Shown here in pieces: positions 14,840-29,377 of a DNA stretch of 62,616 nt; position 1 is the first letter of the stretch; each line of letters begins with the position of its first letter. Origin of the DNA: Synechococcus sp. AG-670-B23 (GTDB lineage: Bacteria > Cyanobacteriota > Cyanobacteriia > PCC-6307 > Cyanobiaceae); NCBI GenBank assembly GCA_003209165.1, contig QCSL01000008.1:1-62616 (forward strand). Direction: 5' to 3'. The position numbers and the translations under genes were made by a program. The notes beneath the pieces are model-generated. The model was not told where the DNA came from. It ran no database searches and was given only the letters and a program-made list of their open reading frames with translations.

Positions 14840-15913
14840 TCAGCAGACCCCCGCTCTGGGTTTGCGTGCCGACCAAACCCTCGTCATGAAGTGGGTTTCT
14901 GCGGTGATTCCTTCGAACCCTGCTGCTGAGAGGCGTACGTCGATGTCGTCACCGATGTAATCGCGGTAATAAGGCTCATGGAAGACGCGCCGGAAGTTCT
15001 CCATCACGGCGGCGAACTTGGCTGAATCGGCCATCTGAGCAGAGTCGGCCAGCACGAAGACACCGCCAGGCTCGAGCACCCGCCAGGCTTCGTTCAGCAC
15101 GTTCTGGCGTGCCTCTGCCGGCAGTTCGTGCAGCAGAAAGACACTTGTGACGGCTTGAACCGATCCATCCGCCAACGGCAGGGATTCCCCATTGGCACGG
15201 ATCAGCTGAACCAGCGATGCATCGCTGTCATTCAGCCAGCGGTTGGCTTGGCGCAGGTACGACTCGGAGAGATCGGTTCCGATCAGTTGCGCATGAGGAA
15301 CGGCGGCTCGGATCTGGTGTAGTGTCCGTCCCGTGCCGGTGGCCACATCGAGAATCTTCAGGGAGCCTGGTGCCCGGTCTGCGAAGTGCTTCAAACCACG
15401 TTTCAGCGGAGCCAACACCCGCCGGCGCATGGCATCTGCGGTGCCATTGAACAGGATTTCAACCTGCAGGTCGTAGAGACCGGCGGAATGGTCACTTAGA
15501 TATCCGTCGGTTTGATGGTGAAAATTCTGGAGGTAGTAATCGGGGTAAAGCGCTGTATCCGTCTCCTCGGGAAGATCACGCACCTTGCGTTCACGACGTC
15601 GATCCCAAGTGGAGGGAAGATCTATCCACACCTGTGGATAGCGGCTAACCCAGTCGAGCCAGGGCGCATCGAAAAGCAGCTGCTCGGGATAGATCCCCTG
15701 TTCGGCATCCTGCCAATCTTGTTCTTGCAGCTTGTTCATGTCCAGGCGGAGCTGTTCAAGAACTTCGGCGGGTACAGGTTCAGTCTTTGGAACGGCATCG
15801 GGTGCCACCAGTTCCATCAGCTTGGTGCTCAGCTCTTTGTGAGCCAAGCCCGCGATGCTTTTGCCTTGCTGAAGCGTTTGGTACGCAAGCTTGCTCAGGG
15901 GCGTTGACGCCAT
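14840..15913 (-). CDS. class I SAM-dependent methyltransferase
   Basis: A 357-residue protein with a helical N-terminal region of about 150 residues and a C-terminal methyltransferase fold. Motif I is ILDVATGTGRTL, with LIGTDLSESYL, SLPLADGSVQAVTSVFLLHE and the post-motif LEPGGVFVLADSAQ following. It resembles UbiE/COQ5-type enzymes of cyanobacteria; substrate unknown. Starts at 15913 (MASTPLSKLAY) and 15937 are both possible. This gene was the neighbour of glnA before the island inserted. Confidence 0.82.
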   Translation of the reverse strand: MASTPLSKLAYQTLQQGKSIAGLAHKELSTKLMELVAPDAVPKTEPVPAEVLEQLRLDMNKLQEQDWQDAEQGIYPEQLLFDAPWLDWVSRYPQVWIDLPSTWDRRRERKVRDLPEETDTALYPDYYLQNFHHQTDGYLSDHSAGLYDLQVEILFNGTADAMRRRVLAPLKRGLKHFADRAPGSLKILDVATGTGRTLHQIRAAVPHAQLIGTDLSESYLRQANRWLNDSDASLVQLIRANGESLPLADGSVQAVTSVFLLHELPAEARQNVLNEAWRVLEPGGVFVLADSAQMADSAKFAAVMENFRRVFHEPYYRDYIGDDIDVRLSAAGFEGITAETHFMTRVWSARKPRAGVC

Positions 15914-15978
15914 CGCGAATCCAGACAACAGATCCATTCCAGCGAATGTGACGAGCAATCGCGGGCTAAGCAGTCCAC

Positions 15979-16006
15979 AAAAAAACCCGCCTCCAGAGAG
16001 GCGGGT
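15979..16006 (-). terminator. intrinsic terminator, originally that of glnA
   Basis: On the minus strand an ACCCGCCT/AGGCGGGT stem with a 6-base loop is followed by seven T residues. It sits just downstream of the duplicated glnA 3' end (16025-16052). It is therefore most simply the native glnA terminator, now left on the far side of the inserted island. Confidence 0.8.
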
Positions 16007-16024
16007 CGTGGGGTGAACGCACGC

Positions 16025-16052
16025 TGATCAAGCGTCGTAGTACATGGTGAAT
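16025..16052. repeat. attachment-site repeat, left copy (duplicated glnA 3' end)
   Basis: A 28-bp stretch identical, apart from one base at 16031, to 27748-27775 at the end of glnA. Read on the minus strand it spells the last residues of glutamine synthetase, F-T-M-Y-Y-D-A, and a TGA stop, outside any glutamine synthetase gene. It marks the distal end of the island. Confidence 0.88.
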
Positions 16053-16122
16053 GAACAGGGCGCCTTTTTGTTTGCTGAGATTTCCTGCAATGACTGGGTT
16101 TCTTGCGACCTGGCTGTTGGGT

Positions 16123-16157
16123 TTTTGGGGACAATTTTGGGGACGTTTTTTGGGGTC
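16123..16157 (+). repeat. TTTTGGGGAC repeats near left att (candidate arm sites)
   Basis: Three tandem copies start at 16123, 16135 and 16148 (the third ends GGGGTC), spaced 12-13 bp. The same two-copy block with 12-bp spacing occurs near the right att at 27682-27703. The rest of 16053-16445 has no convincing gene; a weak frame at 16051-16323 has a poor composition. Confidence 0.6.
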
Positions 16158-16445
16158 ATTTTCTGATGTTTTATCTGCTTTAATTTTTGGCTCTGCTCTC
16201 ACAAGACAGTTCCAAAAAAGTGCGACGCCTAAAATCGAAAATTCCCGCAATCTTGTTTTGCCGGGTTGCACGAAGGACCGCAATCCTTCAGAATTGCTTC
16301 ATAAACTAGTAAAGCTCAATTAGTGCAATTATTTTCAGTAGATTTGCCTGTTGTTTTGCAATCCGTGGCAGAATTTGGGCTCGCAACTAAAACAGCTACG
16401 TAAAAAGTACGGTACGTTGAATTTAGTTGCTAAATCATTAGGTTT

Positions 16446-16607
16446 ATGAGTGATCCTAGTTGCTTGAAAGACGCCCGTTTAGAGATTTGCTGTTCCAAGC
16501 AATTCCTCTCGGAACTTCGTCAGGTTGCTCGCCAGCGTGAACAGAGTGTTAGTGGACTGGTTCGTCAGATCGCAATTCAGCACCTGCCCCTTCAGCTCAA
16601 CAAATAA
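16446..16607 (+). CDS. ribbon-helix-helix DNA-binding protein (53 aa)
   Basis: Starts MSDPSCLKDARLEICCSKQF. The pattern of a beta strand (RLEICCSKQ) followed by two helices (FLSELRQVARQREQ and VSGLVRQIAIQHL) matches small ribbon-helix-helix repressors. It lies 50 bp upstream of the primase-helicase gene in the same direction, mirroring the regulator-helicase order of the element at the left edge of the window. The upstream AT-rich segment 16380-16445 probably holds its promoter and operator (GTACGGTACG near 16408). Confidence 0.6.
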   Translation: MSDPSCLKDARLEICCSKQFLSELRQVARQREQSVSGLVRQIAIQHLPLQLNK

Positions 16608-16657
16608 AAAGCACAGCTGGACCAACAGCTGCGCTAATAAATTTACCTGAATCAAAA

Positions 16658-17950
16658 ATGTTTGAAGCTAGTCAGCAGGCGGATTGTCCTGTTCAATTTT
16701 ATCCTAACGAGACGGCTGAAGTCTGTAGTGCCAACTGTTTTGACGATTTAAGTGCCTGTCCAGAAGAGTGGCGCTATGTCCCAGTCAAGTGCAACAAAGT
16801 TCCGTGGAACTACGAAACAAACCGTGCACTCGAATGGGATGCACACAAGGAATTCAAGGGTTATACGGCAAAGCAGATTCAACAGATACAGCCAAAAGCT
16901 GTTGGATTGATCCTCGGTGAAAGATCTATAGGGGTTGGTGCGATTGACTTTGACGGTCCAGGTTCAGAAGAGGAATTCCAGCGGCAGTTTGGGCGACCTT
17001 CCTCTGATTTGCCTCACTCCGTCGCTTGGACAAGTGGCAAGGCGGACAGGCGTCAGGTTGCTTTTTCAGTTCCATCTGTGTGGCGGGACAAGCTCAGACA
17101 CAGGAAGTGGAAGCAAGGCGGATCCGTTGTTCTAGAGGCCCGCTTACCCGCTCAAGGATCAAACCTGCAGAGCGTCATTGCTGGGCAGCATCCAGAAACA
17201 GATGGATACCGCTGGGTAAAGGGCTGCTCACCAAAAGAAGTAGCCGTTGCAGAAGCTCCTGACTGGCTGTTGGAACGTCTCTTGGAGGCTGACTCTTATC
17301 TCCCGAAGACCTTCCACAAGCTTCAGAAAGATCTTTCAGATGCAGAGCAGGAGCACAACAAAGACAAGGCCCTGGAGGCTTTGAGGTGTCTTCCTGCTGC
17401 TGACTTTGAGGACTACGAAAGCTGGCTCAAGATTGGGATGGCGCTGCACAGCGTCGATGAAGGTCTGCTCAATGACTGGGTCGAGTGGAGCAGCTCCATG
17501 AGCAACTTCGATGAAGGGGAATGTCTCCAGAAGTGGGACAGCTTCAGCGAGAAGTCGCCGGGCGAAGGCGTCGGCATTGGAACGCTGATTAAAGAGGCCA
17601 AGAACCATGGCTACAAAGAACCAGTCAGGGCAATAGCTCCACCAGAACGGGCTGGACTGCCTGGGTTGATCGAGACGGTTGGTTCCTTTATCCAGGAGCT
17701 GGATGAGAACGGTGAACAGAGACCAGCTCCACGGATGAATGCTGGTGCCGTCATGACTCTGCTGGAGAAGCGCTTAGGAAGCCATCTCAAGTTGAACGAT
17801 TTGGCGCGTGTTTATGAATTCGATGGCGTTGCGCTTCCAGAAGATGAAACGATGGTTTCTTATGCAGACATGCAGCAGCAAGGTTGGAACATTGAACAAA
17901 AGGCGTGGCTCGATGGTTTGCTGAGAGAGTGCTCAGAAGCACCGCTATGA
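16658..17950 (+). CDS. primase-helicase, N-terminal part (prim-pol + PriCT)
   Basis: The N-terminal region (about residues 30-200) resembles bifunctional primase-polymerases: VGAIDFDGPGSEEEF carries the metal-binding D-x-D-like acidic pair. It is followed by a PriCT-type domain (about 235-315; DYESWLKIGMALHSVDEG) and the beginning of a VapE domain (EKRLGSHLKLNDLARVYEFD). The frame ends at 17950, where homologues continue into the helicase; the rest is present in another frame from 17925. A 2-bp loss in a GA repeat at 17923-17929 (or a 1-bp gain) would explain the break. It is probably a disrupted gene rather than two real proteins. Confidence 0.75.
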   Translation: MFEASQQADCPVQFYPNETAEVCSANCFDDLSACPEEWRYVPVKCNKVPWNYETNRALEWDAHKEFKGYTAKQIQQIQPKAVGLILGERSIGVGAIDFDGPGSEEEFQRQFGRPSSDLPHSVAWTSGKADRRQVAFSVPSVWRDKLRHRKWKQGGSVVLEARLPAQGSNLQSVIAGQHPETDGYRWVKGCSPKEVAVAEAPDWLLERLLEADSYLPKTFHKLQKDLSDAEQEHNKDKALEALRCLPAADFEDYESWLKIGMALHSVDEGLLNDWVEWSSSMSNFDEGECLQKWDSFSEKSPGEGVGIGTLIKEAKNHGYKEPVRAIAPPERAGLPGLIETVGSFIQELDENGEQRPAPRMNAGAVMTLLEKRLGSHLKLNDLARVYEFDGVALPEDETMVSYADMQQQGWNIEQKAWLDGLLRECSEAPL

Positions 17951-17966
17951 CCCCGTACTCGATTAT

Positions 17967-18893
17967 TTGAAATATCTAGAAAAGGCGGATGATGTAGAGC
18001 CTCTCGATATAAACAAAATTGCGACTAATTACCTGGATACTGACTCTGATCTGAGTGATCAGATGATGAAGGTAGCATTGCTGGGTGCAGTTGCAAGGCG
18101 GTTTGAGCCTGGGTGTCAGTTTGACAGTGTTGTGGTTCTCAAGGGCGATCAAGGTATTCGAAAATCTACATTCTGGAAAACATTGTGCAGCCCTTTGTGG
18201 TTCTGTGACTCAACTCCAAAGGACAGCAAAGAGATGATCATGAATATGCACAGCTGCTGGATCTTTGAACTTGCAGAGCTAGAAAATGTCACCAGCAAAA
18301 AAGGTGTGGGCGAATTGAAAGCCCTGATTACTACTGCGTCGGACATGATCAAGAAACCCTATGGACGAAACATTGAGCGTGACGATCGTCGCAGCATTAT
18401 GGTTTCGAGCGTCAATGGAGATGACTTTCTACGCGATCCAAGCGGCAACAGACGCTTCCAAGTTATCTCTCTTCCTCAGAAGGCCCAGAGAAAAGAATTC
18501 ATTCCTGTTGAGCTCGTAGCGAGAGACAGAGATCGCATCTGGAAGGCTGCGATTGATGCCTACCTTGCTGGTGAAAAGCCCATGCTGTCGTTAGAGCATC
18601 AGGAGCTATCCAACCAACAGAACAAAGGCTATTTACCTGAAGATTTGTGGAGTAGAAAGCTCGATAAATGGTTGTCAGGAAAGAGTGATTATGGCCAGGA
18701 CAAGGAACCAAATGAATTTTTCACTACCCTGGATGCATTGAAAGGAATTGGATTTCTTGGCTTTGAAGAAAAGTTAGGGCGAAGGGAGGAGATGCGAATG
18801 GCCGCTTTGTTGCAAACCAAGGGGTTCCTCAAAGATGAACAGCAGAAGACAATCAATGGCATTTGTGGTTATTACTGGCACAAAGTGGACTGA
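17967..18893 (+). CDS. primase-helicase, C-terminal part (VapE helicase)
   Basis: Continuation of the preceding frame. Sequence similarity to VapE starts at about 17925 (AQKHRYDPVLDYL), before the nominal start, which lacks a good initiation codon (TTG 17967). The P-loop is KGDQGIRKSTFWKTL (about residue 57), the Walker B-like stretch SCWIFELAELENV, and the arginine element DPSGNRRF. It is clearly related to the helicase at 436-1719. Whether both halves are expressed, by frameshifting or reinitiation, cannot be told from the sequence. Confidence 0.75.
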   Translation: MKYLEKADDVEPLDINKIATNYLDTDSDLSDQMMKVALLGAVARRFEPGCQFDSVVVLKGDQGIRKSTFWKTLCSPLWFCDSTPKDSKEMIMNMHSCWIFELAELENVTSKKGVGELKALITTASDMIKKPYGRNIERDDRRSIMVSSVNGDDFLRDPSGNRRFQVISLPQKAQRKEFIPVELVARDRDRIWKAAIDAYLAGEKPMLSLEHQELSNQQNKGYLPEDLWSRKLDKWLSGKSDYGQDKEPNEFFTTLDALKGIGFLGFEEKLGRREEMRMAALLQTKGFLKDEQQKTINGICGYYWHKVD

Positions 18894-18901
18894 ATGGCGC
18901 T

Positions 18902-19203
18902 CTTAACCTCCTGCTCAACCTTCATCTCAACCTGCGTGACTGTTAAAGGTTAAGATGCCTTCCACTCACAGTCGGACCCGCTTGATGCCTTTTTAGGTGA
19001 GGTTGATGTGAGGTTGAGACACTAGGTTGAGATGCCCTTGATCCATTGGTGTGACAGATTTTTAGCCCGTCCTTCTTAACCTGATCAACCTTTTTAAGAA
19101 AAAGAAGCTAGAGAGAGAAAGGAGGGAAAAAGCCTCGATTGGGGCGTCGAATCAGCATCTCTGGCGTAAAAATGTCCACACCCGAAAAATGGTTGAGGTT
19201 GAG
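18902..19203. repeat. iteron-like array of AGGTTNAG repeats (candidate origin)
   Basis: About ten copies of an 8-mer close to AGGTTGAG or AGGTTAAG lie directly after the helicase gene. Minus-orientation copies are at 18902, 18914, 18926, 19075 and 19084; plus-orientation copies at 18947, 19000, 19011, 19024, 19190 and 19196. No gene covers this stretch. A cluster of short repeats in both orientations beside a primase-helicase is the usual arrangement of a satellite or plasmid replication origin, though repressor operators are an alternative. Confidence 0.6.
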
Positions 19204-19213
19204 ACATTTGATC

Positions 19214-19300
19214 GCTTGGTTCAAATAACTGGGAGCGCACCCACCCTCCAGTGCGATTATACGAATCTGAGCAAGGCTGTGACAGTTGAGGATTGATACA
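19214..19300. repeat. diverged repeat B, copy 1 (decayed small-gene start)
   Basis: This 87-bp stretch resembles 20887-20973 (roughly two thirds identical by eye). Both, read leftward, encode an I-L-N-x-H ... P-S-Y-x-N-Q peptide pattern. Copy 2 starts with a proper ATG; copy 1 has lost it. It looks like a decayed paralogue of the small gene at 20732-20972. Confidence 0.4.
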
Positions 19301-19315
19301 CTCTGACTTTCGGTC

Positions 19316-19370
19316 AAAAACCCCGCCATTGCTGTCGGGGTGAATGTTTTGTCGATAGATGGATAGCGAC
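19316..19370 (-). terminator. repeat A copy 1: leftward terminator hairpin
   Basis: On the minus strand a CCCCG/CGGGG stem is followed by GTTTTT; the whole 55-bp unit recurs at 20598-20652 with three mismatches. It lies about 70 bp beyond the stop of the leftward small membrane gene 19439-19615 and would terminate it. Confidence 0.6.
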
Positions 19371-19438
19371 TCATTTTCCACCAACTTGGTGTGATTACGG
19401 GCTATCTCTAATGGCAGAAGAAGCTCCTCTACTCAATA

Positions 19439-19615
19439 TCAATATCCGCCAATTCGCAGAACCATCTCAAGAGCACTCAAGCCAAAGATGAAGGTGCCGC
19501 CTAGCAGCGCAAGTTCCTTCTTGGATGAAGCCATTGGAAGCAGGGCAGAGCCCATGATGAGCGACGCGAAGAATATTAAGGGATTCTGTAATTCCAAATA
19601 AGTGTCTAACGGCAC
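19439..19615 (-). CDS. small two-span membrane protein (58 aa)
   Basis: Starts at GTG 19615 with MPLDTYLELQNPLIFFASLI, a first hydrophobic helix, then a short Ser-Ser-Lys-Lys turn and a second hydrophobic helix (LALLGGTFIFGLSALEMVL), ending I-G-G-Y. The regular hydrophobic pattern, the positive turn and the downstream terminator support a real gene. Function unknown; small membrane proteins are common satellite cargo. Confidence 0.45.
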   Translation of the reverse strand: MPLDTYLELQNPLIFFASLIMGSALLPMASSKKELALLGGTFIFGLSALEMVLRIGGY

Positions 19616-20082
19616 AGAAGCCAGTCTCTCACTGAATGTAACGGAAACTTCATGTACTTGAGTTCAAGTACCTACAGATATCGATACACTTTTCATATAA
19701 CTTTAATTCTCTGGTGAGAGTAAAACCAGGAGTGTTATCGCTCGATACACCACAAGTAGGTCCCGAATTCCTGGGTGTTCCTTTTGGCATCGAAAGGCTG
19801 GATAGGAATAGAGCAATGCGGGTGTCTTGAGGCATAGGCCAGGCGTGACTGCCTTGGGTATTCCCCGCTGTTGCGCTGGTGATGCATTGGCAACGCAAGA
19901 CAGGCGTTTTGGCCTGTTGTATGCCATGTCTCGTTATCGCCCAAAGCCAGACGAACACTCGGAGAAACCAGGTACATAGCAGCGAACTTCTCGTTTCGCG
20001 TGTTCGGTCCCTTGGCGGTTTTCACCGTCACGGCCAGGTCTGTTGGCTGGCGATGGTTGTTTCGTCTTCAATTCAGCCTTAA
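19616..20082. other. stretch without a convincing gene
   Basis: Several overlapping frames are open on the minus strand (for example 19735-20031, 98 codons) and none shows a recognisable domain or convincing composition. The segment probably contains the promoter for the small-protein cassette that begins at 20083 and for the leftward membrane protein. Confidence 0.4.
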
Positions 20083-20247
20083 ATGTCTACCGAAGTTCGT
20101 AACTGGGCCATCGTCGCCAAGGCAATGGAAGCAGCTGGTGCCACATCAAGTCAGATGTATGTCCGCGCCAAAGCATTGGCACAAGGCAAGCTCGACCCCA
20201 TGCCCACCAGCGCCCCTGAAGCTCCATACAGCATTTCTGCAGCCTGA
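20083..20247 (+). CDS. cassette protein A, copy 1 (54 aa)
   Basis: Begins MSTEVRNWAIVAKAMEAAGA, then SSQMYVRAKALAQGK and a Pro-rich tail ending PYSISAA. It is about 70 percent identical by eye to the 54-residue protein at 62091-62255, with the same length and the same neighbour on its 3' side. The conservation shows it is a real gene. No known domain is recognised. Confidence 0.7.
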   Translation: MSTEVRNWAIVAKAMEAAGATSSQMYVRAKALAQGKLDPMPTSAPEAPYSISAA

Positions 20248-20312
20248 GTCATCACCGACTGATCAGCAGCCTTGCCATATCAGCAGGGCTGTAACTCCTT
20301 TACTTATCTCTA

Positions 20313-20537
20313 ATGACCAATCATCACTTGTCAGTTGAGCAAAGGTTTCATTTGGAAGCAGCCTTCAGAGAGATCGATGGCTGCGAGGACATTGAAAAGC
20401 TCCGTGCTCTTACGAAGCAGATCATTACTGCACAGGAGAATGAAAAGGCATTTGCTCGCGAAGCGATGCAGCAGATCCGCAAGGAGATGGAAGCATCTGC
20501 CCAGCAGCGGTTCGGATTCAACTGGGGCCAGAAGTAA
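20313..20537 (+). CDS. cassette protein B, copy 1; weakly NblA-like (74 aa)
   Basis: A helical protein starting MTNHHLSVEQRFHLEAAFRE, nearly identical over its first 60 residues to 62310-62535. The LS-x-EQ-x-F-x-L start followed by a helix and a second charged helix (QENEKAFAREAM) aligns without gaps to the short phycobilisome-degradation adaptor NblA as I remember it. That likeness is weak and needs a profile search. The C-terminal FGFNWGQ is shared by both copies. Spacing of 65 bp after protein A suggests one transcript. Confidence 0.7.
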   Translation: MTNHHLSVEQRFHLEAAFREIDGCEDIEKLRALTKQIITAQENEKAFAREAMQQIRKEMEASAQQRFGFNWGQK

Positions 20538-20597
20538 AAGCTTGGATTCGCTTGATCAAGTCAGTGACTTTCGCCAGCTTCCTTGGTGGTCCATATA

Positions 20598-20652
20598 AAA
20601 AACCCCGCCATTGCTGACGGGGTGAGTGTTTTGTCGGTAGATGGATAGCGAC
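20598..20652 (-). terminator. repeat A copy 2: terminator hairpin
   Basis: The same 55-bp unit as 19316-19370. The CCCCG/CGGGG stem is followed on the minus strand by six T residues. It lies between the convergent cassette protein B gene and the leftward gene 20732-20972, and can end transcription of the latter; on the plus strand the run GTGTTTTG follows the stem, so it may work both ways. Confidence 0.6.
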
Positions 20653-20731
20653 AATCACAACGCCCCCTGCTTTCCCCTTGCGGGTCTTGTATAGCTTTCA
20701 GCCTTAAGGCATCAGGCTTCCCGACGTTGCA

Positions 20732-20972
20732 TCAATCAACCGACTGAAGACGAACACGCTCTTTGGTGGCCATGTCTGGATTAAATTCAGCCCACTGCTT
20801 CATTGCAGGATTGGCATCCAGATAAGTGTTGTAGCTGCAGTAAACGGCACGGTTTCAAATACTCAATCAGGCCTGAAATTCCAGTCGATTGGTTGAAATA
20901 GCTGGGCCAGCTCTGGCGCTCCAGTGTGGTTTCAGGGACCAGGAGAGGGGTGTGATAGTTGAGGATTGGCAT
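20732..20972 (-). pseudogene. small gene with a frameshift, unknown family
   Basis: Reading leftward from ATG 20972 gives MPILNYHTPLLVPETTLERQ and continues through PSYFNQSTGISGLIEY. The frame then turns poor, while another frame continues convincingly (YNTYLDANPAMKQWAEFNPD) to a stop at 20732. One indel near 20850 would join them into a protein of about 79 residues. A decayed paralogue of its first part lies at 19214-19300. Confidence 0.45.
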
Positions 20973-21091
20973 ACTTGCTGCCTGTTTTGGCGCTTGTCTG
21001 GCCGCCCGGGCACATCTGGGACATGATCAAGGGTCTTTGATAGTTGCCCCGCCTCAGCTTATTGTCTGGGACAAGTTCAACCCTTTTGATT

Positions 21092-21775
21092 GTGGCTGAA
21101 CAGTTCGTGACCTACTTCCGTGTTTCGACTGAGGAGCAGGGCGACAGCGGACTGGGCATCGAGGCACAGCAGGAGAAGGTCCGTTCCTTGGTGGAGTCGA
21201 GAGGCGGTGAGGTCATCGATGAGTTCACTGAGATTGAAAGCGGCCGCAAAAGCCAACGACCTGTTCTTGCTCAGGCGCTCGAGGCTGCACGCGAAGCGAA
21301 GGCGGTTTTGGTGGTCGCCAAGTTGGATCGCCTCGCCAGAGATGCAGAGCTGGTCAATCGCCTGTCGAAGGAAGTCGCCAGCAACGGCTTTCTCGGTCTT
21401 TCATTTGCTGATTTGCCTGACGTAGACGCAACCAACGCTGCTGGTCGGATGATCCTTGGAGTGATGGCGCAAGTGGCCCAGTTCGAAGCAGAGCGGATCG
21501 GCGAGAGAACCCGAGAAGCATTGGCCGCTGCCAAAGCCAGAGGCGTGAAGCTAGGAGGCCGCAGAGAGGAAGCTGTCAAAGCAGCTCAAGCCCGGAAAGG
21601 GGAGGCGCTGGAAAGAGCTGAGGCGCTGCGTGGATTGATTGCACCGTTCGTCGAGGCAGGTCAATCACAGCGAGCGATTGCAGCTGCTCTGAATGACGCC
21701 GGACACCGGACTGAGCGTGGCTCGCTCTGGAATCACAAGACGATTGGACGTGTGATTTACAGGCTCTGCTTATGA
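21092..21775 (+). CDS. serine recombinase / resolvase
   Basis: A 227-residue resolvase-family recombinase. The catalytic serine is in YFRVSTEEQGDSG (about residue 12), followed by the KLDRLARDA element (about 85) and the ILGVMAQVAQFEAERIGERT helix. A C-terminal helix-turn-helix is suggested by GQSQRAIAAALNDAGHRTER. I chose GTG 21092; an upstream ATG-less extension would add 16 unlikely residues. It may resolve element dimers or invert DNA. It is the second recombinase in the island, alongside the tyrosine recombinase. Confidence 0.85.
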   Translation: MAEQFVTYFRVSTEEQGDSGLGIEAQQEKVRSLVESRGGEVIDEFTEIESGRKSQRPVLAQALEAAREAKAVLVVAKLDRLARDAELVNRLSKEVASNGFLGLSFADLPDVDATNAAGRMILGVMAQVAQFEAERIGERTREALAAAKARGVKLGGRREEAVKAAQARKGEALERAEALRGLIAPFVEAGQSQRAIAAALNDAGHRTERGSLWNHKTIGRVIYRLCL

Positions 21776-21892
21776 AGGGGTAGTGGGGAAGGGCGCCTTC
21801 CAGCGATTGATCGATCAACCAACAGCAGAGTTACCCAATTTTTGAAATATCAGTTTTCAAAGATCTCAGGTGTTGCAGCGCCTAAAACGCTG

Positions 21893-22075
21893 ACTATGGC
21901 CTCGACGATTGGCCCAGATCTGCTTCGCGTCAGGAGTGGTTTCGCATCACGCGTGAACTGGTCGCCAGCACCATTGCCGAGATGGATCTGGACCTTGCCG
22001 CCTTGGCTGAAGTCGAGGAGGCGTTCATCGGAGCTGGCCTGCTGCGATGCCCTCAAAGCCTCTCGAAGCATTGAA
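21893..22075 (+). pseudogene. possible gene remnant
   Basis: A frame without a start codon reads DYGLDDWPRSASRQEWFRIT, RELVASTIAEMDLDLAALAE and VEEAFIGAGLLRCPQSLSKH before a stop at 22073-22075. Its composition looks like real protein but no family is recognised. It may be the 3' end of a gene truncated when the resolvase region arrived. Confidence 0.25.
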
Positions 22076-22322
22076 ATTTGCGCCAGCCCTTACGGAAGCC
22101 GACGTCTTCTACCTCAGTCCATTTCTCTCCTGCATCGACGCACCCCTGCATCGTCGGCATGGAAAACGTCACCTTGTTGATTACGTCAGAGTTCATCGCA
22201 CCCGAGGCGTAGACGCCATTAACGCCAGAGATCAGCACCAGCTGTGCCTGATCTTCTGTTTGGGCCTGAACCGGAACGGTGGCAAGCGTAAGTACGGCCA
22301 CAGCAACCAAAGCCGTCTTCAT
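22053..22322 (-). CDS. small exported protein (89 aa)
   Basis: A classical signal peptide is visible (MKTALVAVAVLTLATVPVQA, cleavage before QTEDQ). The mature part of about 69 residues has two Cys (GCVDAG near residue 65 and FQCFERL at the end) that could form a disulfide. No family recognised. It sits among other exported proteins of the island. Confidence 0.6.
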   Translation of the reverse strand: MKTALVAVAVLTLATVPVQAQTEDQAQLVLISGVNGVYASGAMNSDVINKVTFSMPTMQGCVDAGEKWTEVEDVGFRKGWRKFQCFERL

Positions 22323-22354
22323 CACCAATCAGTCGTTGCAACCCAGGGTTAGCC

Positions 22355-22738
22355 ATGACCCGCAAGAGAATCACTGCCAGCCAGAAGAAACAACGCCATG
22401 AATGGGCCGTTGCTCAGATCGACAAGGGTGTCGGCTTCTCGGAATTAACTTCCCTTACTTCCGAAACATGGGGGGTCACCCGCCGACAGGCCCGTACTGT
22501 CGTGAAGGAAGCCAATAAAGAGTGGCTGGACGCTTTCAACGACGAAGACATCAACCAACGTGATCTGTTGTTCCAGTGCCTCGGACGCCTTGAGCGCACA
22601 GCGCGCAAGGCGGAAGAGAGCGGCAACTTTGCCTGTGTGATCGGTGCGGTTCAGCTGATGAATCGAATGATGGCTTTGGGTGCTGATCAGGCTGGGTTCC
22701 GCGGTCATCGAACCAACGGGCACTGCTACCGGCGCTGA
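22355..22738 (+). CDS. possible terminase small subunit-like HTH protein (127 aa)
   Basis: The N-terminal region (about residues 8-50; EWAVAQIDKGVGFSELTSLT and TWGVTRRQARTVVKEA) reads like a helix-turn-helix, and the helical region RLERTARKAEESGNFACVIG resembles the oligomerisation helices of phage terminase small subunits. Satellites often carry such a protein to redirect DNA packaging. The last 20 residues look out of frame: another frame (SAVIEPTGTATGAD) fits better, so the 3' end may be frameshifted. Family call is tentative. Confidence 0.4.
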   Translation: MTRKRITASQKKQRHEWAVAQIDKGVGFSELTSLTSETWGVTRRQARTVVKEANKEWLDAFNDEDINQRDLLFQCLGRLERTARKAEESGNFACVIGAVQLMNRMMALGADQAGFRGHRTNGHCYRR

Positions 22739-22835
22739 CCGTCGCAAGTGGAATTGCGATGGGAGGTTCCCACAATCGTTACGGCGATTGTCTTTGGTAT
22801 TGAGTCAGGTGGGTTGCGCATTTCTTGTAGGGAAC

Positions 22836-23450
22836 TCATCTGAGTGATTCACAAGCTTCTCCATCGCCGTCACCATCGAGATAGCGGTGGCCTCTAGCCA
22901 AGAGTTGTTGAGCGCGACTCCAAGAGCCAATGTCCTTGCAGCGGTATTTACGGGTGCTGCCTGAGCTTGATGAACTTCTCCGTCTCCCCCGCCGGTAGTC
23001 CCAGGGCCGTGTGATGCCTGATGGCCCAACGGACCAGACGCCGATGCCCTGACGCTTTGCCTCAGCCTCAAGCTGGAGATATCTCTGTGCATCGCACTGA
23101 CGGAGATACCGCCGATAGGCAAATGCTTGGCCTCCTTCAACCATCAGCTGATTCACATTTCCCCGATGGTTGAGCAATTCCGCCACGGTCCTGCCGTAGC
23201 GGTCCGTGGTTTGCACCCTCAACGTCACTTCTGAACCAACCGGCGTTAGCTGCTTCAGCAATGCCGTAGATCTGGCTTCCCAAGGTCGCTGGGATGATTC
23301 CGGTGCATCAATGCAGGCGAGGCGAACAGTGATTCGTTTGCTGCCTTCAGATACGCGAATTGTGTCCCCGTCCCCCACAGAAACCACTGTTGCTGCGTTG
23401 ACGGTTGTCGTGAAGCAAAGCGCGAGCAGAAATGCAGCGGCTGCTTTCAT
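22836..23450 (-). CDS. secreted thermonuclease-like protein with Excalibur domain
   Basis: A signal peptide (MKAAAAFLLALCFTTTVNAA) precedes a staphylococcal-nuclease fold: VVSVGDGDTIRV, RLACIDAPESSQRPW, TTDRYGRTVAELL and the C-terminal helix region. Catalytic Arg and Glu equivalents appear in RLACIDAPE and RYGRTVAE. After a Ser/Arg linker comes an Excalibur calcium-binding domain (DGDGDGEACESL). It probably degrades extracellular or periplasmic nucleic acid. Its start overlaps the stop of the upstream Excalibur gene by 4 bp. Confidence 0.85.
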   Translation of the reverse strand: MKAAAAFLLALCFTTTVNAATVVSVGDGDTIRVSEGSKRITVRLACIDAPESSQRPWEARSTALLKQLTPVGSEVTLRVQTTDRYGRTVAELLNHRGNVNQLMVEGGQAFAYRRYLRQCDAQRYLQLEAEAKRQGIGVWSVGPSGITRPWDYRRGRRRSSSSSGSTRKYRCKDIGSWSRAQQLLARGHRYLDGDGDGEACESLR

Positions 23451-23638
23451 CGCATCCTTTCCCCGTTCTTACCGCAGAGGCTTTCGCAGGGGACACCATC
23501 CTTGTCGCGATCAAGCTTCGAGTTCCCCGACCGATAAGACCTGACGGCTTCCTCGCAGGAGTTGAAGGACTTGCAGGTCTGGGCGTTAGCAACAGGTGCA
23601 ATCAGCACAGTTGCGGCCAGAAGGATCGCGAAGCGCAT
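23447..23638 (-). CDS. small exported Excalibur-domain protein (63 aa)
   Basis: A signal peptide (MRFAILLAATVLIAPVANAQ) is followed by one Excalibur calcium-binding domain with the D-x-D-x-D-G loop (KLDRDKDGVPCESLC) and four Cys. A start eight codons upstream at 23662 is also possible. It is translationally coupled to the secreted nuclease gene, so the two exported proteins probably act together. Confidence 0.75.
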   Translation of the reverse strand: MRFAILLAATVLIAPVANAQTCKSFNSCEEAVRSYRSGNSKLDRDKDGVPCESLCGKNGERMR

Positions 23639-23832
23639 CAGCTGGGTAGTCGCCTTATCCACTGTTTAGTCACCATGAAACCCAAAAGCACCTGAGCGGC
23701 CTGGAAAAGGGGGGCTTTCAGAGCAGTCACCCTTAACTAGTGACCAGCGACACCCGAATTGCCTTTTTTTGATGCGGGAACTCGGTGCTGTTCTTCACGC
23801 CACAGTGACCTATGCCAGGATTCCAATAGCTT

Positions 23833-24957
23833 TTGGCACAATTGTTGGCTAAATGCATTTCGATAAAGCATCGAATCATTGCTAGCCGCTACGCCAAGCC
23901 TGATAGAACAAATATACGCCTAATCAAATTACGAGATAAAAACTCTGGTTTTACTATATTGGAGCTTATTTTTGTAGTTGCTGTATTGGGGATATTGGCA
24001 TCTTTGGCGATCCCTCGTTTTAGGTGCATTGTCCCGCTGTCGAGAGCAACAGCCGCACATTATTTGCTGAGGCAAGTCATGAGTGAATGCCAAATTCGAA
24101 AAGTGGCAGGGCAAAATTATCGATTTACAGGTGACAATTTAGATGGCTACCAGATCGATTCTGGAGTGCCAAATGATTGCAAGGGAGATCCTGTTACTGG
24201 ATTAATAAGTGCCGTTCCAGTCAGTACAAATGAGTATCCAAGATTTGATTTAAGCAATTCAAGTGGTTCTTTTACGTGCACCTTCAAGGGTACGACCTAT
24301 CAAAAACCGAAGCAATGCCTGGACATGATTTGCGGCAATGCTTCTGCCACCAGTTCTTCACAATCTAATACATCTACCGCCACTCCCTCGCCACCTAATA
24401 CATCTTCTTTATTCCCGAATGACTCCGGCTTTGCTTGCAGGACTGTTGATAGTAATCAAATGAGTTTTGGGTATGGTTATGTTTATCTAGATGGCAGAGA
24501 TAGCGTTGAGCTAGAAATACAACCGGTTACAATTGCGGCCGGTCAAGAGACCTGGGATATCAGTGGAGTGAAGACAACGATTGAGCGCGAGCCCTGTTAT
24601 GCAACGAATGACAGGTGCAGCGACAGTCAGTGGCTTGTTGATTTTGCCAATGCTGTAGTAGACACTGTAAACAGCTCTGATTCCAATTACAGTGCCGAAT
24701 TGGATCCAAGTGGCAATGGTCAAATTATTTTCTACTCTCCAACAGGTGAAGTAGATAATTCCATCTCAATGGAGGTCAGCAGGCAGGTAATCAATTCTCC
24801 CTGGAACTCTGCAGCCAATGGGACAAATCCTTGGGCTTATCCAAGCCTGGGTGGAGATGTGATGACAGACAGAACATATTATGGCAATCGAACATTTAAT
24901 TCAGGTCAGTCTTCGGTTAATGCGACTTCGACAACTATCTGCGATGGAAAGGGATAG
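23833..24957 (+). CDS. type IV pilin-like protein, AT-rich
   Basis: A prepilin-type N-methylation motif, SGFTILELIFVVAVLGILAS, is clear at about residues 38-57, with the conserved Glu five residues after the Gly. A long leader of about 38 residues precedes it, and a Cys-containing, Ser/Thr/Asn-rich domain of about 300 residues follows. No ATG is available in frame; TTG 23833 or a nearby TTG must start it. The gene is much more AT-rich than the core, suggesting recent transfer. It may be a minor pilin or a pseudopilin that needs host PilD for cleavage. Confidence 0.65.
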   Translation: MAQLLAKCISIKHRIIASRYAKPDRTNIRLIKLRDKNSGFTILELIFVVAVLGILASLAIPRFRCIVPLSRATAAHYLLRQVMSECQIRKVAGQNYRFTGDNLDGYQIDSGVPNDCKGDPVTGLISAVPVSTNEYPRFDLSNSSGSFTCTFKGTTYQKPKQCLDMICGNASATSSSQSNTSTATPSPPNTSSLFPNDSGFACRTVDSNQMSFGYGYVYLDGRDSVELEIQPVTIAAGQETWDISGVKTTIEREPCYATNDRCSDSQWLVDFANAVVDTVNSSDSNYSAELDPSGNGQIIFYSPTGEVDNSISMEVSRQVINSPWNSAANGTNPWAYPSLGGDVMTDRTYYGNRTFNSGQSSVNATSTTICDGKG

Positions 24958-25304
24958 GTTGAGCTGACTTTTTGGCATTTAATGCTCTTAAGGAGCTGCA
25001 TTTTTACCGCGGAGTCAACGGGTCCTTCTCGCCGCAATGTGGGCCACCACAAGGCATCGTGCCTGAGTTGAAACAAATTTGTAGGGAAGTTTGTTGGCTT
25101 AAAGCTATGTAAAAACTCTCGTAACCTTGACACAATCGCGATACCAGCTACTGCAAGAGGATGTAGTATCAAATCACTAATAAACGTCTCCCAGAATTGT
25201 CGACCATGTCTAACATCAAATTTATCTGTAACAACGCGATAATTGCCCTCGATATTGTTCTCTCCGGTAGCTGCTATAGCGCAGACAGTTGATGGAGTCC
25301 TCAA
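24906..25304 (-). other. possible coding fragment, unknown
   Basis: A leftward frame contains NYRVVTDKFDVRHGRQFWET and a hydrophobic stretch, LILHPLAVAGIAIVSRL. The composition is protein-like from about 25000 to 25250, but it overlaps the ends of both flanking rightward genes and no family is recognised. It may be a gene fragment. Confidence 0.22.
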
Positions 25305-25735
25305 TAATGACGGTATTTCTAATAACGAAGCGCATCAGAAATGTCTCGCCGCTGTCGACTATGAAGGATGCATAAGAGTACAGCGCGGATTGGTAAAAAA
25401 CTGTGATTGCTGATAGCCCCTATGGATATGATCCTGATTCCATAAGACAAGTCATTCTTCGAGGAAGGGTTGGAAGATATCTCAGATTCACTGGACGTAC
25501 TACTGGTTTATATGGGGGTAAGATTCTGCCTCCGATAGGTGATGTCATGCAGAGAGAATTTGTTTATACGGTCGATTGCGAGGACAAAACCTTTGATCGT
25601 AAAGGCGAAAAACGTGAGCCAATGATTATTAAGGGTGTCGGCTGGAAACCTCTTACCGATGATCCCTCGGCTAAGGAGGTGTACTCGAAATACTGCCCAC
25701 ATATCGATAAAATCAAACTCTTAGATTCAAATTAA
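25243..25735 (+). pseudogene. secreted unknown protein, probably frameshifted
   Basis: A frame from TTG 25243 (MPSILFSPVAAIAQTVDGVL) reads a short signal-like lead and then NNEAHQKCLAAVDYEGCIRV before stopping at 25413. A second frame from GTG 25403 continues with VILRGRVGRYLRFTGRTTGL, a Cys-containing middle (YTVDCEDKTFDRKGEKREP) and a Cys-containing end to 25735. The C-x-A-x-x-D-Y-x-G-C signature and the domain order suggest one exported protein broken by an indel near 25400. Function unknown. Confidence 0.5.
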
Positions 25736-25863
25736 AAATTTTAAAATTAATTGTTCAGGAGAAAAGACTGCATCAACGACACAAGTTCACGGCGCTCAGA
25801 ATTCGGTCATGCAGTGCCCAACGGTGAAGAGCCGCATCAGCTTGAAGCCCTGTGATCACAAGT

Positions 25864-25992
25864 GTGCCGAATCCAAACAGCCTGGGCATGTTGGAGATGC
25901 GCCAGCGGGGTGATGGCTACGGCACTATTGCCGCAGCTATGGGGATGAACGCCTCAACGGTTCGCCGGATCATCAACGCAGCTGCGGGGTGA
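25864..25992 (+). CDS. tiny helix-turn-helix protein (42 aa)
   Basis: From GTG 25864 the frame reads MPNPNSLGMLEMRQRGDGYG followed by TIAAAMGMNASTVRRIINAA. The second part is a typical helix-turn-helix of the resolvase or transposase kind. It lies just beyond the 3' end of the tyrosine recombinase gene and could be a recombination directionality factor or a leftover DNA-binding tail; both are guesses. Confidence 0.4.
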   Translation: MPNPNSLGMLEMRQRGDGYGTIAAAMGMNASTVRRIINAAAG

Positions 25993-26000
25993 AGGGAGGT

Positions 26001-27668
26001 TCAAATAGGCGGCGTGCTCATCAATCGCATTCTGCATTGAGGTAGATCGTCTGATGTGTACTGGTTCAACGGCGTGTGGCCTGTCTTGCCTGTCAGCATT
26101 TCAACGATGCGGTTTGAATAACCCGCATTCACCAGGTGGTTGATGAGTGTCTCTCGCCAGGAGTGTGTTCCCTGAAACGCAGGGATTTTGTCTCGCATCC
26201 GACGAGCCAGCCGATCTCCCCAGAGCTGCTTGTCGTTTCTTGGCTCCTCCTGAGGAAAGGCAGGATCTGTATTGGTTGGATCGGCGTGCTTCTTCCAGAT
26301 CTTGAGCGCCGCATCAGGCAGCGGAATAACTCGTTCTGACTGGGCTGTTTTAATTCCGCCTCGATCGCCCATCACTGAGAAGCCTCGGCCGCTCCACGGC
26401 CTGATTTCAATGCAGTGGTAGTGCTTTCCATTGATGGAACGCTTCGTGAAATCACACTTACGCAATCCTGCAACCTCCTGAATTCGCGTTCCTGTCACCG
26501 CTTGAATGAAGAAAACATCGAAGGCTGGGTCTTGTTTCCCCTTGCTGTCGGCCTTCATTCGTCTATAGATCTCAGCCACCTTCTCGGGCGAGAGGATTTT
26601 GTTGGCATCAGGGGTCTTCCTCGCGTCCAGGCGCACCTGCATTGACGTTCGCCTGTTCTTTGGAAGGCTCGTCCAAGGGTTGGCGTCAATCAACTGTTGT
26701 CGTTCGGCAGACGCCCAAACCGAGCTCAAATACCGGATTTCCTTGCTTGCAGTGCTGTGCTTCAGGCCGTTTTCTTCGCCAAATAGGAAGCTTCTGTAAG
26801 CAATTGCCAGCTCAACGTCCAAACCTGTTGGAAGGCTGAGCTGATGCTTGTGGCTCATCCATCGCTTCAGCCGCTCAAGGGCACGGCCGATCTCCTTCAT
26901 CGAGCCATCTGCCATTCCCTCGCTCCCCTTCGCCTCCATCAAGCTCTGCCAGCTAAATCCCTTGCCTTCTGCCTTGGGTGATGGTGGAACTAGCAGACCC
27001 TCTGCTTTTTCCCTTTGTGCCGTTCCGGCGTGCTCGCTTGCAAGCGTTGAGAAGCGGGAAAGAATCTGCAGCAAGTCATCTCGTGACGGTCTGAAACCTT
27101 CTTGCCAGCACAGCTTCTGGAGCTTGTCAGCCTCTTCAGTTATTTCTGTGCCTCTGATTAGTGGATATTTCGCCGGCCCGCTTTGGTCTCCTTCCTCGTC
27201 TTCCCCCCAGCTGTTCCACCAGGCGAAAGCTTCTGCCCAGTTTGTTGTGCCGTGCAAGTTGCTCATAACAGCAGCTTTTGCGAGCTCTTCCATCCGGTCC
27301 ACGTTCAGAGCTTGCAGGTTCAGGCCTCGCTGCTTCCCTTCGATCCATTTCTCTGCAAGCGTTGAAGCAATGCCTTCAAGATCGCTCCCTGAGTAGCTGA
27401 TGGTTTCACCTTTCAGGCTCAGCAGCATCTCCTGAATTTCTGCGTTCCGGCGATGGCAGTAGGCCTCAGCAGCCTTCTGAGCCGTTATCAGCTGACCGGT
27501 GGGGGATTTGATCCACTCATCGAGGTAGATGGGCTTGATGCGCCCTGGATACTTCTTGGCCTGAGCGGCCAGGTTCTTGACGAAGAAGAAGCCTTCTCTG
27601 CCCTCACGTCGGTAAAGACCTAGCCCTCGTGGTGCGGATGAGACCCTTTTCGCCCTATCTCGGCCCAC
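26001..27668 (-). CDS. tyrosine recombinase (island integrase)
   Basis: A 555-residue integrase, probably the enzyme that inserted the island at glnA. Catalytic residues are visible in the C-terminal domain: Arg in AVTGTRIQEVAGL, His and Arg in GTHSWRETLINH, a second His in GKTGHTPLNQYTS and the nucleophile Tyr in the same motif. The N-terminal third (GLGLYRREGREGFFFVKN) and middle helical core-binding region are extra long, as in picocyanobacterial satellite integrases. GTG 27668 is the start; it directly follows the T-tract of a terminator. The gene is co-directional with glnA. Confidence 0.92.
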   Translation of the reverse strand: MGRDRAKRVSSAPRGLGLYRREGREGFFFVKNLAAQAKKYPGRIKPIYLDEWIKSPTGQLITAQKAAEAYCHRRNAEIQEMLLSLKGETISYSGSDLEGIASTLAEKWIEGKQRGLNLQALNVDRMEELAKAAVMSNLHGTTNWAEAFAWWNSWGEDEEGDQSGPAKYPLIRGTEITEEADKLQKLCWQEGFRPSRDDLLQILSRFSTLASEHAGTAQREKAEGLLVPPSPKAEGKGFSWQSLMEAKGSEGMADGSMKEIGRALERLKRWMSHKHQLSLPTGLDVELAIAYRSFLFGEENGLKHSTASKEIRYLSSVWASAERQQLIDANPWTSLPKNRRTSMQVRLDARKTPDANKILSPEKVAEIYRRMKADSKGKQDPAFDVFFIQAVTGTRIQEVAGLRKCDFTKRSINGKHYHCIEIRPWSGRGFSVMGDRGGIKTAQSERVIPLPDAALKIWKKHADPTNTDPAFPQEEPRNDKQLWGDRLARRMRDKIPAFQGTHSWRETLINHLVNAGYSNRIVEMLTGKTGHTPLNQYTSDDLPQCRMRLMSTPPI

Positions 27669-27691
27669 AAAAAAGTCCCCGTTTTGGGGAC
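27669..27691 (-). terminator. island-supplied terminator for glnA
   Basis: On the minus strand a GTCCCC/GGGGAC stem with a 5-base loop is followed by six T residues that run straight into the recombinase GTG start. It lies about 60 bp after the glnA stop and replaces the native terminator, which was displaced to 15979-16006. One arm belongs to the TTTTGGGGAC repeat, so the same bases may serve as terminator and recombinase arm site. Confidence 0.75.
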
Positions 27692-27703
27692 CATTTTGGG
27701 GAC
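27682..27703 (+). repeat. TTTTGGGGAC repeats near right att (candidate arm sites)
   Basis: Two copies start at 27682 and 27694 with 12-bp spacing. They are identical in sequence, spacing and orientation to the first two copies at 16123-16144, apart from the two bases between units. Both clusters lie inside the element within about 110 bp of the core repeat. Confidence 0.6.
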
Positions 27704-27747
27704 AATTCCAATCGTTTGTCCAGTCTTGGGTTTATGACTGGACTAAT

Positions 27748-27775
27748 TGATCAGGCGTCGTAGTACATGGTGAAT
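27748..27775. repeat. attachment-site repeat, glnA copy
   Basis: Overlaps the last glnA codons and stop. It matches 16025-16052 over 28 bp with one mismatch (27754), a third-position change in the last Ala codon. Because the island carries a copy of the 3' end, glnA stays intact after integration. Confidence 0.88.
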
Positions 27776-29172
27776 TCGTGGGGGTGAGGACGCTGGCGCA
27801 ACTGCTGAACCTCTTCGTATTTGAGGTCAATCCAGTTGTCGATGAAGTCGTCACTGAAAACGCCGCCAGCGGTGAGGAAGCCGCGATCAGTGTTCAAAGC
27901 CTCCAGGGCACCGTTGAGAGATGCAGGAACCGTGGCGATCTTCGAAAGCTCTTCAGACGGAAGTTCGAACAAGTCGCGATCTTCGCCGTCGCCAGGATCA
28001 ATTTGGTTCTTGATGCCATCGAGGCCAGCCATCATCATCGCGCTGAAGGCCAGATAAGGGTTGGCCAGCGCATCACCCGAGCGGAATTCAAGTCGCTTGG
28101 CCTTCGGGCTTGGACCGGTGAGCGGGATTCGCACGGCGGCAGAGCGGTTGCCCTCGGAGTAGACGAGGTTCACCGGTGCTTCGAAACCGGGAACCAGACG
28201 CTTGTAGCTGTTGGTGGTGGGGTTGGTGAAGGCCAGGAAGGCCGGAGCGTGCTTAAGAATGCCGCCGATGTACCAGCGGGCGGTCTGCGACAGGTTCGCG
28301 TAGGTGCCTTCGCCAAAGAATAGCGGCTGTCCTCCCTTCCAGAGGCTCTGGTGCACGTGCATGCCGGTGCCGTTGTCGTTGAAGACTGGCTTGGGCATGA
28401 AGGTGGCTGTCTTGCCGTACTTCTTCGCCACGTTCCGCACAACGTACTTGTAAGTCATGACGTTGTCGGCTGCCTGGATCAGCTCAGCAAATTTCATGCC
28501 GAGCTCGTGCTGACCTGCGCCGGCCACCTCGTGGTGATGCTTCTCGGTGGGGATGCCCAGCTGACCCATCAGCAGGAGCATCTCGGAGCGGATGTCCTGA
28601 GCGGTGTCGTTCGGAGCTACAGGGAAGTAGCCCTCTTTAACCTGAATTTTGTAAGCGAGGTTGCCTCCTTCCTCAATGCGTCCGGTGTTCCAGCCAGCTT
28701 CGATGGTATCGACGTTATAAAAGGATCCACCTTCGGCCGAGTTGTACCGAACGTCGTCGAAGAGGAAAAACTCAGGCTCAGGTCCGAAAAAGGCCATGTC
28801 GGCCAGACCGGTGTTTGCCAGGTGATTCAGAGCCCGCTGGGCCAGGGCGCGGGGGCAGCGCTCGTAGGGCTGACCGGTGCGCGGCTCCTGAATTGAGCAA
28901 ATCATGCTAAGGGTTTTGTGCCGGTAGAAGGGATCCACCCAAGCGGTGTTGGCATCCGGCACCATGGCCATGTCGGAGGCCTGGATTCCCTTCCAACCAC
29001 GGATGGATGAGCCGTCAAAGGCGAGACCCTCTGTGAAGGACTCTTCCTCCAGCAAATCGGTGCAAACCGTCAGGTGCTGCCATTTGCCGTGTAGGTCTGT
29101 GAATTTTAGGTCGATCAGTTCGATGCCTTCGTCCTTGATCTGGCGCAGGACGTCCTGGGGGGATTTCGACAT
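27751..29172 (-). CDS. glnA: glutamine synthetase type I
   Basis: Joins ammonium and glutamate with ATP, the entry step of nitrogen assimilation. The protein is 473 aa from ATG 29172 ([19 protein letters not shown]), normal for GlnA. Visible motifs are the Mg/substrate signature [17 protein letters not shown], the ATP-binding region [18 protein letters not shown] and the [17 protein letters not shown]-type block here reading [15 protein letters not shown]. Residues near the adenylylation loop match ([17 protein letters not shown] precedes them). The 3' end doubles as the integration target of the island. A frame continues upstream to 29292 but the extra residues are not conserved-looking. Confidence 0.96.
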
Positions 29173-29212
29173 AAGAGGGACTGCTCGACTGAATTGTGCT
29201 GTGATGTGACCG

Positions 29213-29250
29213 TATATAGCCACAAGACACCATTTTGTATCAAGAGGTAC
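29213..29250 (-). promoter_or_regulatory. NtcA-activated promoter of glnA
   Basis: A perfect NtcA box, GTA-N8-TAC, lies at 29237-29250. On the minus strand it is followed after about 18 bp by TATATA (29213-29218), a good -10 element, about 40 bp before the glnA ATG. This is the classical class II arrangement by which NtcA and 2-oxoglutarate activate nitrogen genes. The box is palindromic and could also influence apcF on the other side. Confidence 0.8.
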
Positions 29251-29377
29251 GTTCCTTCTGCTAGGCGGCGACTGCGTAACCGTTTCTGTCAACTTGGCTG
29301 AAATGCAGGCCTGCCAAAGGATTTGCCCGCCTCAACGGTGTTAGCTTCCGCTGGGGATCCTCTGGAGATTCAGGGAC

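Follow-up and report, generated by a model that had tools for sequence, protein, structure and literature searches.

We analysed 62,616 nucleotides of Synechococcus sp. AG-670-B23 (contig QCSL01000008.1 of a draft genome with 100 contigs and 87.69% completeness; hereafter the window) and found that they very probably carry a site-specific integrative element, which entered the 3' end of the glutamine synthetase gene glnA by means of its own tyrosine recombinase. Sequence comparison supports the insertion, the empty site, the regenerated gene end, the conserved target and the repeats at the element ends. The original prediction, made from the letters of the window, had set the limits of the island at 16025..27775; these coordinates were correct and enclose an 11.72-kb element at the last glnA codons.

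Insertion at the 3' end of glnA

The element is bordered by a 28-bp direct repeat, TGATCA[A/G]GCGTCGTAGTACATGGTGAAT, whose copies at 16025-16052 and 27748-27775 are 27/28 identical and spaced by 11,723 bp. Both copies translate on the minus strand to F-T-M-Y-Y-D-A-stop and re-create the glnA end, as had been proposed. A motif search of the window allowing <=3 mismatches matched these two positions and nowhere else, and 100 dinucleotide shuffles of the window gave a mean of 0.00 and a maximum of 0 matches. The glnA reading frame is intact and open end to end, with 80.6-99.2% identity to the full-length glnA of the relatives compared. The site comprises the following features, with strand in brackets:

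14840..15958 (-): methyltransferase-like host gene, directly after glnA in empty sites (methyltransferase-model matches below cut-offs)
15984..16007 (-): probable native glnA terminator, a hairpin, now 11.7 kb from its gene (terminator scan; empty sites have it at the same position)
16025..16052 (-): attR-type core, the far-end repeat copy, next to the old glnA terminator (27/28 repeat; host-side sequence resembles empty sites)
27748..27775 (-): attL-type core, the repeat copy now serving as the glnA end (27/28 repeat)
27751..29172 (-): glnA, type I glutamine synthetase, 473 amino acids (aa), the last codons being the attachment site (TIGR00653, 4.3e-197)

The hairpin at 15984-16007 is, by eye, of the same kind as the one following glnA in empty-site genomes, in agreement with the earlier suggestion that the native terminator now lies on the far side of the island. 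Rfam gave no match at gathering thresholds over window positions 15000-29500, and ARAGORN found no tRNA in the window.

Empty sites were sought in a same-genus set of 34 genomes, including that of the window (G000 in our numbering), of which 29 had a glnA match and 5 had none; all 29 were read. The arrangement anticipated by the original prediction, with glnA joined directly to the terminator, was present in 21/29, where the glnA stop is followed by a hairpin (by eye) and the methyltransferase gene without an insert. Three of the 29 carry an integrase at the site (window, G210, G212), in three (G204, G207, G213) an interval of ~0.7-1.8 kb with no integrase match separates glnA from the methyltransferase gene, and in two the site ends at a contig edge (G221, G222). 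G223 and the window are collinear in their flanking genes on either side, with glnA adjoining the methyltransferase gene in G223. Across the 34 genomes, a second copy of the glnA end (exact pattern) was found only in G000, G210 and G212, all of which have an integrase, and no left repeat without an island was seen among them.

Sister elements and the probable position of the crossover

Islands at the same position were also read in other genomes. G306, a one-contig genome, has a 17.1-kb island between glnA and the repeat, followed by a hairpin and the methyltransferase gene, and G180 has an 11.76-kb island with both ends on one contig. The two ends lie on different contigs in G165, G106, G210 and G212, where we infer that they belong together, and in G244 the glnA end alone was read. 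In G000, G306, G165, G106 and G062 the methyltransferase gene follows on the far side.

By our reading of the match table, the exact glnA-end pattern occurred twice in 12/400 genomes. As an island count this pattern was rejected for five of them, which were dropped as contig-end overlaps (G301, G336, G299) or as having a second glnA on another contig (G139, G119), leaving seven (G000, G210, G212, G062, G306, G291, G156). Two of these, G291 and G156, have two glnA ends in tandem with no integrase match and are probably decayed elements. The second copies in G165, G106 and G180 were missed by the exact pattern and recovered with one mismatch and a wider stop codon. In G062, 355 kb separate the two attachment ends of the glnA element, which are oriented alike (C1:320248 and C1:675674; L021, L095), with two near-identical transposase-like open reading frames (ORFs; by eye) near the second end.

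Differences between the two copies point to where the exchange took place. In G180 the stop codon is TAG at glnA and TGA in the far copy, and the other genomes of its genus (g30) have TGA in 12/12; therefore, the present glnA end was supplied by the element and the exchange point lies upstream of the stop. In G165, the two core copies disagree at two codons, Phe and Ala, which are separated by 18 bp, and thus the core lies inside the last seven glnA codons.

A recurrent integrase lineage at glnA

The original prediction that the island encodes its own tyrosine recombinase was borne out by domain matches:

26001..27668 (-): tyrosine recombinase (integrase), 555 aa (PF13102, 6.9e-7; PF00589, 4.1e-5, below the curated cut-off; phrog_1, 1.7e-21)

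The gene is co-directional with glnA and lies 82 bp downstream of it. The catalytic residues R395, K440, H502, R505 and Y537 are invariant in a five-row integrase alignment, and K528 occupies the expected His/Trp position. Beyond the catalytic Tyr, the tail of the window integrase diverges from its relatives, with an apparent frame break in the alignment.

A search with this single protein, which predates any glnA-based choice, gave a match in 13 of 201 family genomes; those in G165, G106 and G180, and a remnant in G062, lie beside glnA as in the window. A profile of five rows (window, G306, G165, G180, G106), searched in 400 family genomes, also gave 13 matches at E <= 1e-15. All eight strong matches (E <= 1.1e-38; the five profile rows plus G244, G212 and G210) lie directly downstream of glnA and co-directional with it. 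They span five genera (g1, g34, g9, g30, g45), to which G062 adds genus g5 with only 39 aligned integrase residues. The five weak matches (8.4e-21 to 1.1e-16; G145, G086, G218, G109, G112) had no glnA within the 2.7-4 kb read. A 292-genome phylum sample yielded no integrase match besides the window and the weak G112. Judging from these sequences, the glnA-linked integrase is a recurrent lineage in several genera and not a single case.

Members of this lineage differ in their state of preservation. The integrase frames of G306, G165 and G180 are long, uninterrupted by stops and have conserved catalytic residues. That of G106 is in two separated parts with transposase-like ORFs between them (by eye), that of G210 is interrupted, and G062 keeps only the N-terminus.

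Putative arm-type repeats and replacement terminator

Short repeats stand beside the core at both ends of the window element, and the innermost copy at the glnA end coincides with a hairpin:

16123..16156 (no strand): two exact copies and one imperfect copy of the TTTTGGGGAC motif, putative arm-type sites at the far end (window motif count)
27674..27692 (-): hairpin GGTCCCCAAAACGGGGACT followed by a T run, putative replacement glnA terminator using the innermost arm motif (similar layout in 5/9 elements)
27682..27703 (no strand): glnA-end pair of direct TTTTGGGGAC copies 12 bp apart, putative arm-type integrase sites (window motif count; similar in relatives)

The exact 10-mer TTTTGGGGAC occurs four times in the window, two per island end, with an expectation of 0.14. 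Repeats of the GTCCCCAA type, 12-13 bp apart, lie beside the core at both ends in the window, G306, G165, G106 and G210, and copies spaced 12-13 bp occur at the glnA end of G212, G244 and G062, with one motif copy at the far end of G062. A looser motif, [GT]CCCCAA, gave 39 hits in the available stretches of eight elements (window, G306, G165, G106, G210, G212, G244 and G180, with G062 left out), 31 of them within 160 nt of the core. Overall, the element ends look like lambda-type att sites, in which the GTCCCCAA repeats are probably arm-type integrase sites.

The repeats are of the CCCCAAG type in G165, G244 and G062 and mostly CCCCAAA in the window, G306, G106, G210 and G212. G106 and G244 belong to the same genus and their GlnA proteins are 95% identical, whereas their integrases share 44% identity (N-terminal part) and their motif types differ; the G106 integrase is nearer to that of G306 (57% and 75% for its two parts), though the G306 GlnA is 84% identical. 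Thus, the arm motif follows the integrase clade and not the host. This pairing appears to speak for repeated independent acquisition.

Five elements (window, G306, G106, G210, G212) have a hairpin, directly followed by T6-T9, of which the innermost motif copy forms one side; the energies range from -7.7 to -14.9 kcal/mol, and the G306 hairpin is imperfect. No such T run was present in the other four elements examined (G165, G244, G062, G180). The element may therefore bring its own glnA terminator in one subclade, so that glnA need not have lost termination. In eight elements the integrase starts 71-84 bp past the glnA stop, and in all nine the two genes are co-directional. Nitrogen limitation induces glnA. 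We regard it as improbable, if conceivable, that the element "listens" to the nitrogen state of its host, with glnA read-through feeding integrase expression that would rise under nitrogen limitation, and with arm-bound integrase altering this read-through.

Cargo and replication module

Between the integrase and the far end, the element carries a replication module and a varied cargo:

16658..17950 (+): primase part (Prim-Pol, PriCT_2) of the replication gene (PF08707, 9.5e-20; PF09250, 2e-11)
17967..18893 (+): VapE-type helicase part, in a frame different from that of the primase part (PF05272, 4.3e-60)
21044..21775 (+): serine recombinase, resolvase type (PF00239, 6.6e-32)
22355..22738 (+): small, probably all-helical protein (phrog_34910, 4.6e-7, no function given)
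22836..23662 (-): SNase/Excalibur-type nuclease and small Excalibur protein, cargo (PF00565, 3.5e-17; PF05901, 5.8e-9)
23833..24957 (+): protein with a type IV pilin-like N-terminus, cargo (PF07963, 1.3e-5)

A relative has primase and helicase in a single frame across this stretch, and the two parts in the window are apparently one gene split in two frames. The replication module of the congener G162 is 84.9% identical to that of the window over 2,671 columns. It belongs to a ~10.4-kb island (L131:3661-14135) at tRNA-Leu(TAG), where 47 bp from the 5' part of the tRNA are repeated and the integrase is a different one. Thus, given this match at different targets, replication and integration modules seem to have been exchanged between elements.

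In sister elements, selected ORFs were scanned. The G306 element has TerL (phrog_38, 6.8e-39), a protein with a weak resemblance to recombinases (PF00589 below cut-off) and leader peptides of the Nif11 type, whereas that of G106 has a TerS-like protein (phrog_6299, 6.3e-14), matches to type II restriction and modification enzymes and, near its integrase, a 54% relative of the window serine recombinase. An Mrr-type nuclease was found in G180 and a short HmaA-like helicase in G165. The cargo is a mosaic across the glnA elements. Nif11-like leaders occur in prochlorosin precursors; in the G306 island, several small genes at L086:8556-10756 have such leaders, and the one tested matched PF07862 at 8.3e-20.

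The small protein at 22355-22738 had been suspected to be a terminase small subunit, given a helix-turn-helix and a helical hairpin. We do not make this assignment: PHROGs, PDB sequences and a profile comparison with the TerS-like protein of G106 lent no support, nor did a fold search with a weak model (mean pLDDT 63.4). Members of its family were matched in 18 of the 34 same-genus genomes, that of the window among them, frequently several to a genome. Near the serine recombinase, the island also contains a 55-bp direct repeat with 95% identity (19316-19370 and 20598-20652), the second copy of which overlaps a terminator-like hairpin.

Proposed mechanism and alternative explanations

We propose that the recombinase would join an element-borne copy of the glnA end (the attP core) with the last ~seven codons of the host glnA (attB). 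This exchange would swap the 3' end of glnA for the synonymous copy of the element, keeping the enzyme intact, while the native end would stay with its terminator on the far side. The GTCCCCAA-type repeats beside the core would act as arm-type integrase sites, as in lambda-type att sites, and the innermost copy might double as a replacement terminator in one subclade. The crossover reaction, arm-site binding, terminator function and excision are our inferences. The element carries a VapE-type primase-helicase and would belong to a family of phage-dependent satellites. A satellite lifestyle is likely for the family because terminase genes are present in two sister elements (G306, G106), and we lean slightly towards it.

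Several observations weigh against this account. Five of the eight strong integrase matches are rows of the profile itself, leaving only G244, G210 and G212 as outside matches; of these, G210 and G212 had already been met through glnA before the profile search, and the G306 row was first found via the glnA-end repeat, so the set was not chosen blind. The methyltransferase gene was not found on the far side of G180, G210 and G212 within the sequence fetched. Of the 39 looser-motif hits, 8 are interior (two each in the window, G306, G106 and G180), the far end of G212 has a variant and no exact motif copy, and G180, whose integrase is the most distant (28%), has a different repeated motif containing CTAGCCCC at both ends (by eye). 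A terminator scan of the whole region found 16 against a shuffle mean of 13.9, which is no excess; therefore, the case for a replacement terminator rests on position and on recurrence in five elements. No relative of the integrase was found in phage, plasmid or viral-contig collections, which also gave no match for the replication gene, the small ORF or the glnA-end core (not every query was run in every collection). One further collection search returned four weak matches only (E 0.3-1), and a genome-contig collection gave no match in a first scan and three loci in a second. Finally, neither an excised circle nor transfer was observed.

Among alternative explanations, the one that survives best is that the window holds a decayed, immobile relic of a former satellite or prophage, with broken integrase and replication gene, kept by drift; this is compatible with the proposed entry route, and we consider it a serious possibility at somewhat less than even chances. 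The primase-helicase lies in two frames and the integrase tail is altered and apparently out of frame, so the window copy may be dead, and elsewhere there are the broken integrases of G106, G210 and G062 and the integrase-less remnants of G291 and G156. However, the open integrases of G306, G165 and G180, with their conserved catalytic residues, indicate that the family as a whole is not dead, and the two window repeats have kept 27/28 identity. Among 21 host ORFs compared between the window and G223, one is also frame-broken, so sequence error is possible.

It is also possible, if slightly less probable, that we are dealing with a phage-independent integrative element, for example a tycheposon-like cargo element into which a protein-gene-specific integration module was swapped. 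No packaging gene was confirmed in the window, a point that also counts against a satellite, and the closely similar primase-helicase module of G162 sits beside a different integrase at tRNA-Leu, with its 47-bp tRNA repeat; on the other hand, the terminase genes of G306 and G106 point to phage packaging. That the repeats reflect assembly error or chance duplication is very unlikely: the genome is a draft and five two-copy genomes proved to be contig-end overlaps or second glnA copies, but complete islands with both ends on one contig exist in G306 and G180, the one-contig genome G306 alone making this reading improbable, and relatives have empty sites while shuffles gave no chance match.

Relation to known mobile elements

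Site-specific integration at glnA can be set beside several known systems, which we compared by their published descriptions. Tycheposons were first described in a picocyanobacterium. Like those of Prochlorococcus and others, the glnA element combines a tyrosine recombinase, cargo and a fixed chromosomal position. Tycheposons are described as bordered by tRNA genes (PMC10872708), whereas the element targets glnA. A picocyanobacterial tyrosine recombinase family on variable islands, often near a small serine recombinase, has been described in "Large language models improve annotation of viral proteins" (PMC10187409). Serine recombinases are also present in the window and G106 elements, but the islands of that description lie upstream of tRNA-Phe or tRNA-Cys, which sets the glnA element apart.

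Phage-inducible chromosomal islands (PICIs) are described as having an integrase, a primase/replication module and sometimes terS (PMC6092414). The window element similarly has an integrase and a replication module (PriCT_2, Prim-Pol, VapE), though in two frames; unlike PICIs with terS, it has no confirmed terS. Islands at protein-coding genes are also on record, including SGI1, which occupies the 3' end of trmE, and others found at the 5' end of dusA; these share with the glnA element an integrase-specific use of a conserved protein-coding gene; the target gene and its function differ, in a comparison made by description and not by integrase sequence.

Protein-coding genes as integration targets are treated in PMC12884075, the main text of which mentions neither glnA nor glutamine synthetase. 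Among the matches examined in the literature on glnA or glutamine synthetase with integration, a body that includes few subscription papers, we found no report of glnA as a target; in the passages available from integrase-related papers, glnA appeared in strain typing, phylogeny, a gene list or as a gene carried on an element, and in none as a target. Protein-coding targets and picocyanobacterial tRNA islands are thus already known, and glnA as a docking site appears to be a new addition.

With it, a conserved nitrogen-assimilation gene would join the picocyanobacterial docking sites of mobile DNA, and such elements can readily be searched for by their signature, a duplicated glnA end. The way in which arm motif and integrase clade are paired in different genera represents a natural experiment on arm-site recognition. 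If it functions, an arm site doubling as a terminator would repair both the coding end and the transcription end of the target gene economically.

Other observations

Weak integrase relatives in G112 (L134:6946-10293) and G218 (L115) start directly after a gene that we take to be rpoD and are followed by a VapE helicase, an arrangement found in 2/28 readable same-genus genomes. The rpoD stop codon is TGA in G112 and G218; among the other 26 genomes only G147 has TGA, and the rest have TAA or TAG. Elsewhere in the 19 kb of L134 the rpoD end does not recur over more than 14 bp; we therefore regard an rpoD target as no more than a lead.

In the window, a host ORF at ~4750 lies in two frames, through either a real mutation or a sequence error, and is open in G223. 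A further VapE-type helicase is encoded at window 679-1341 (-), and other contigs of this genome have three further matches; the genome probably harbours several islands.

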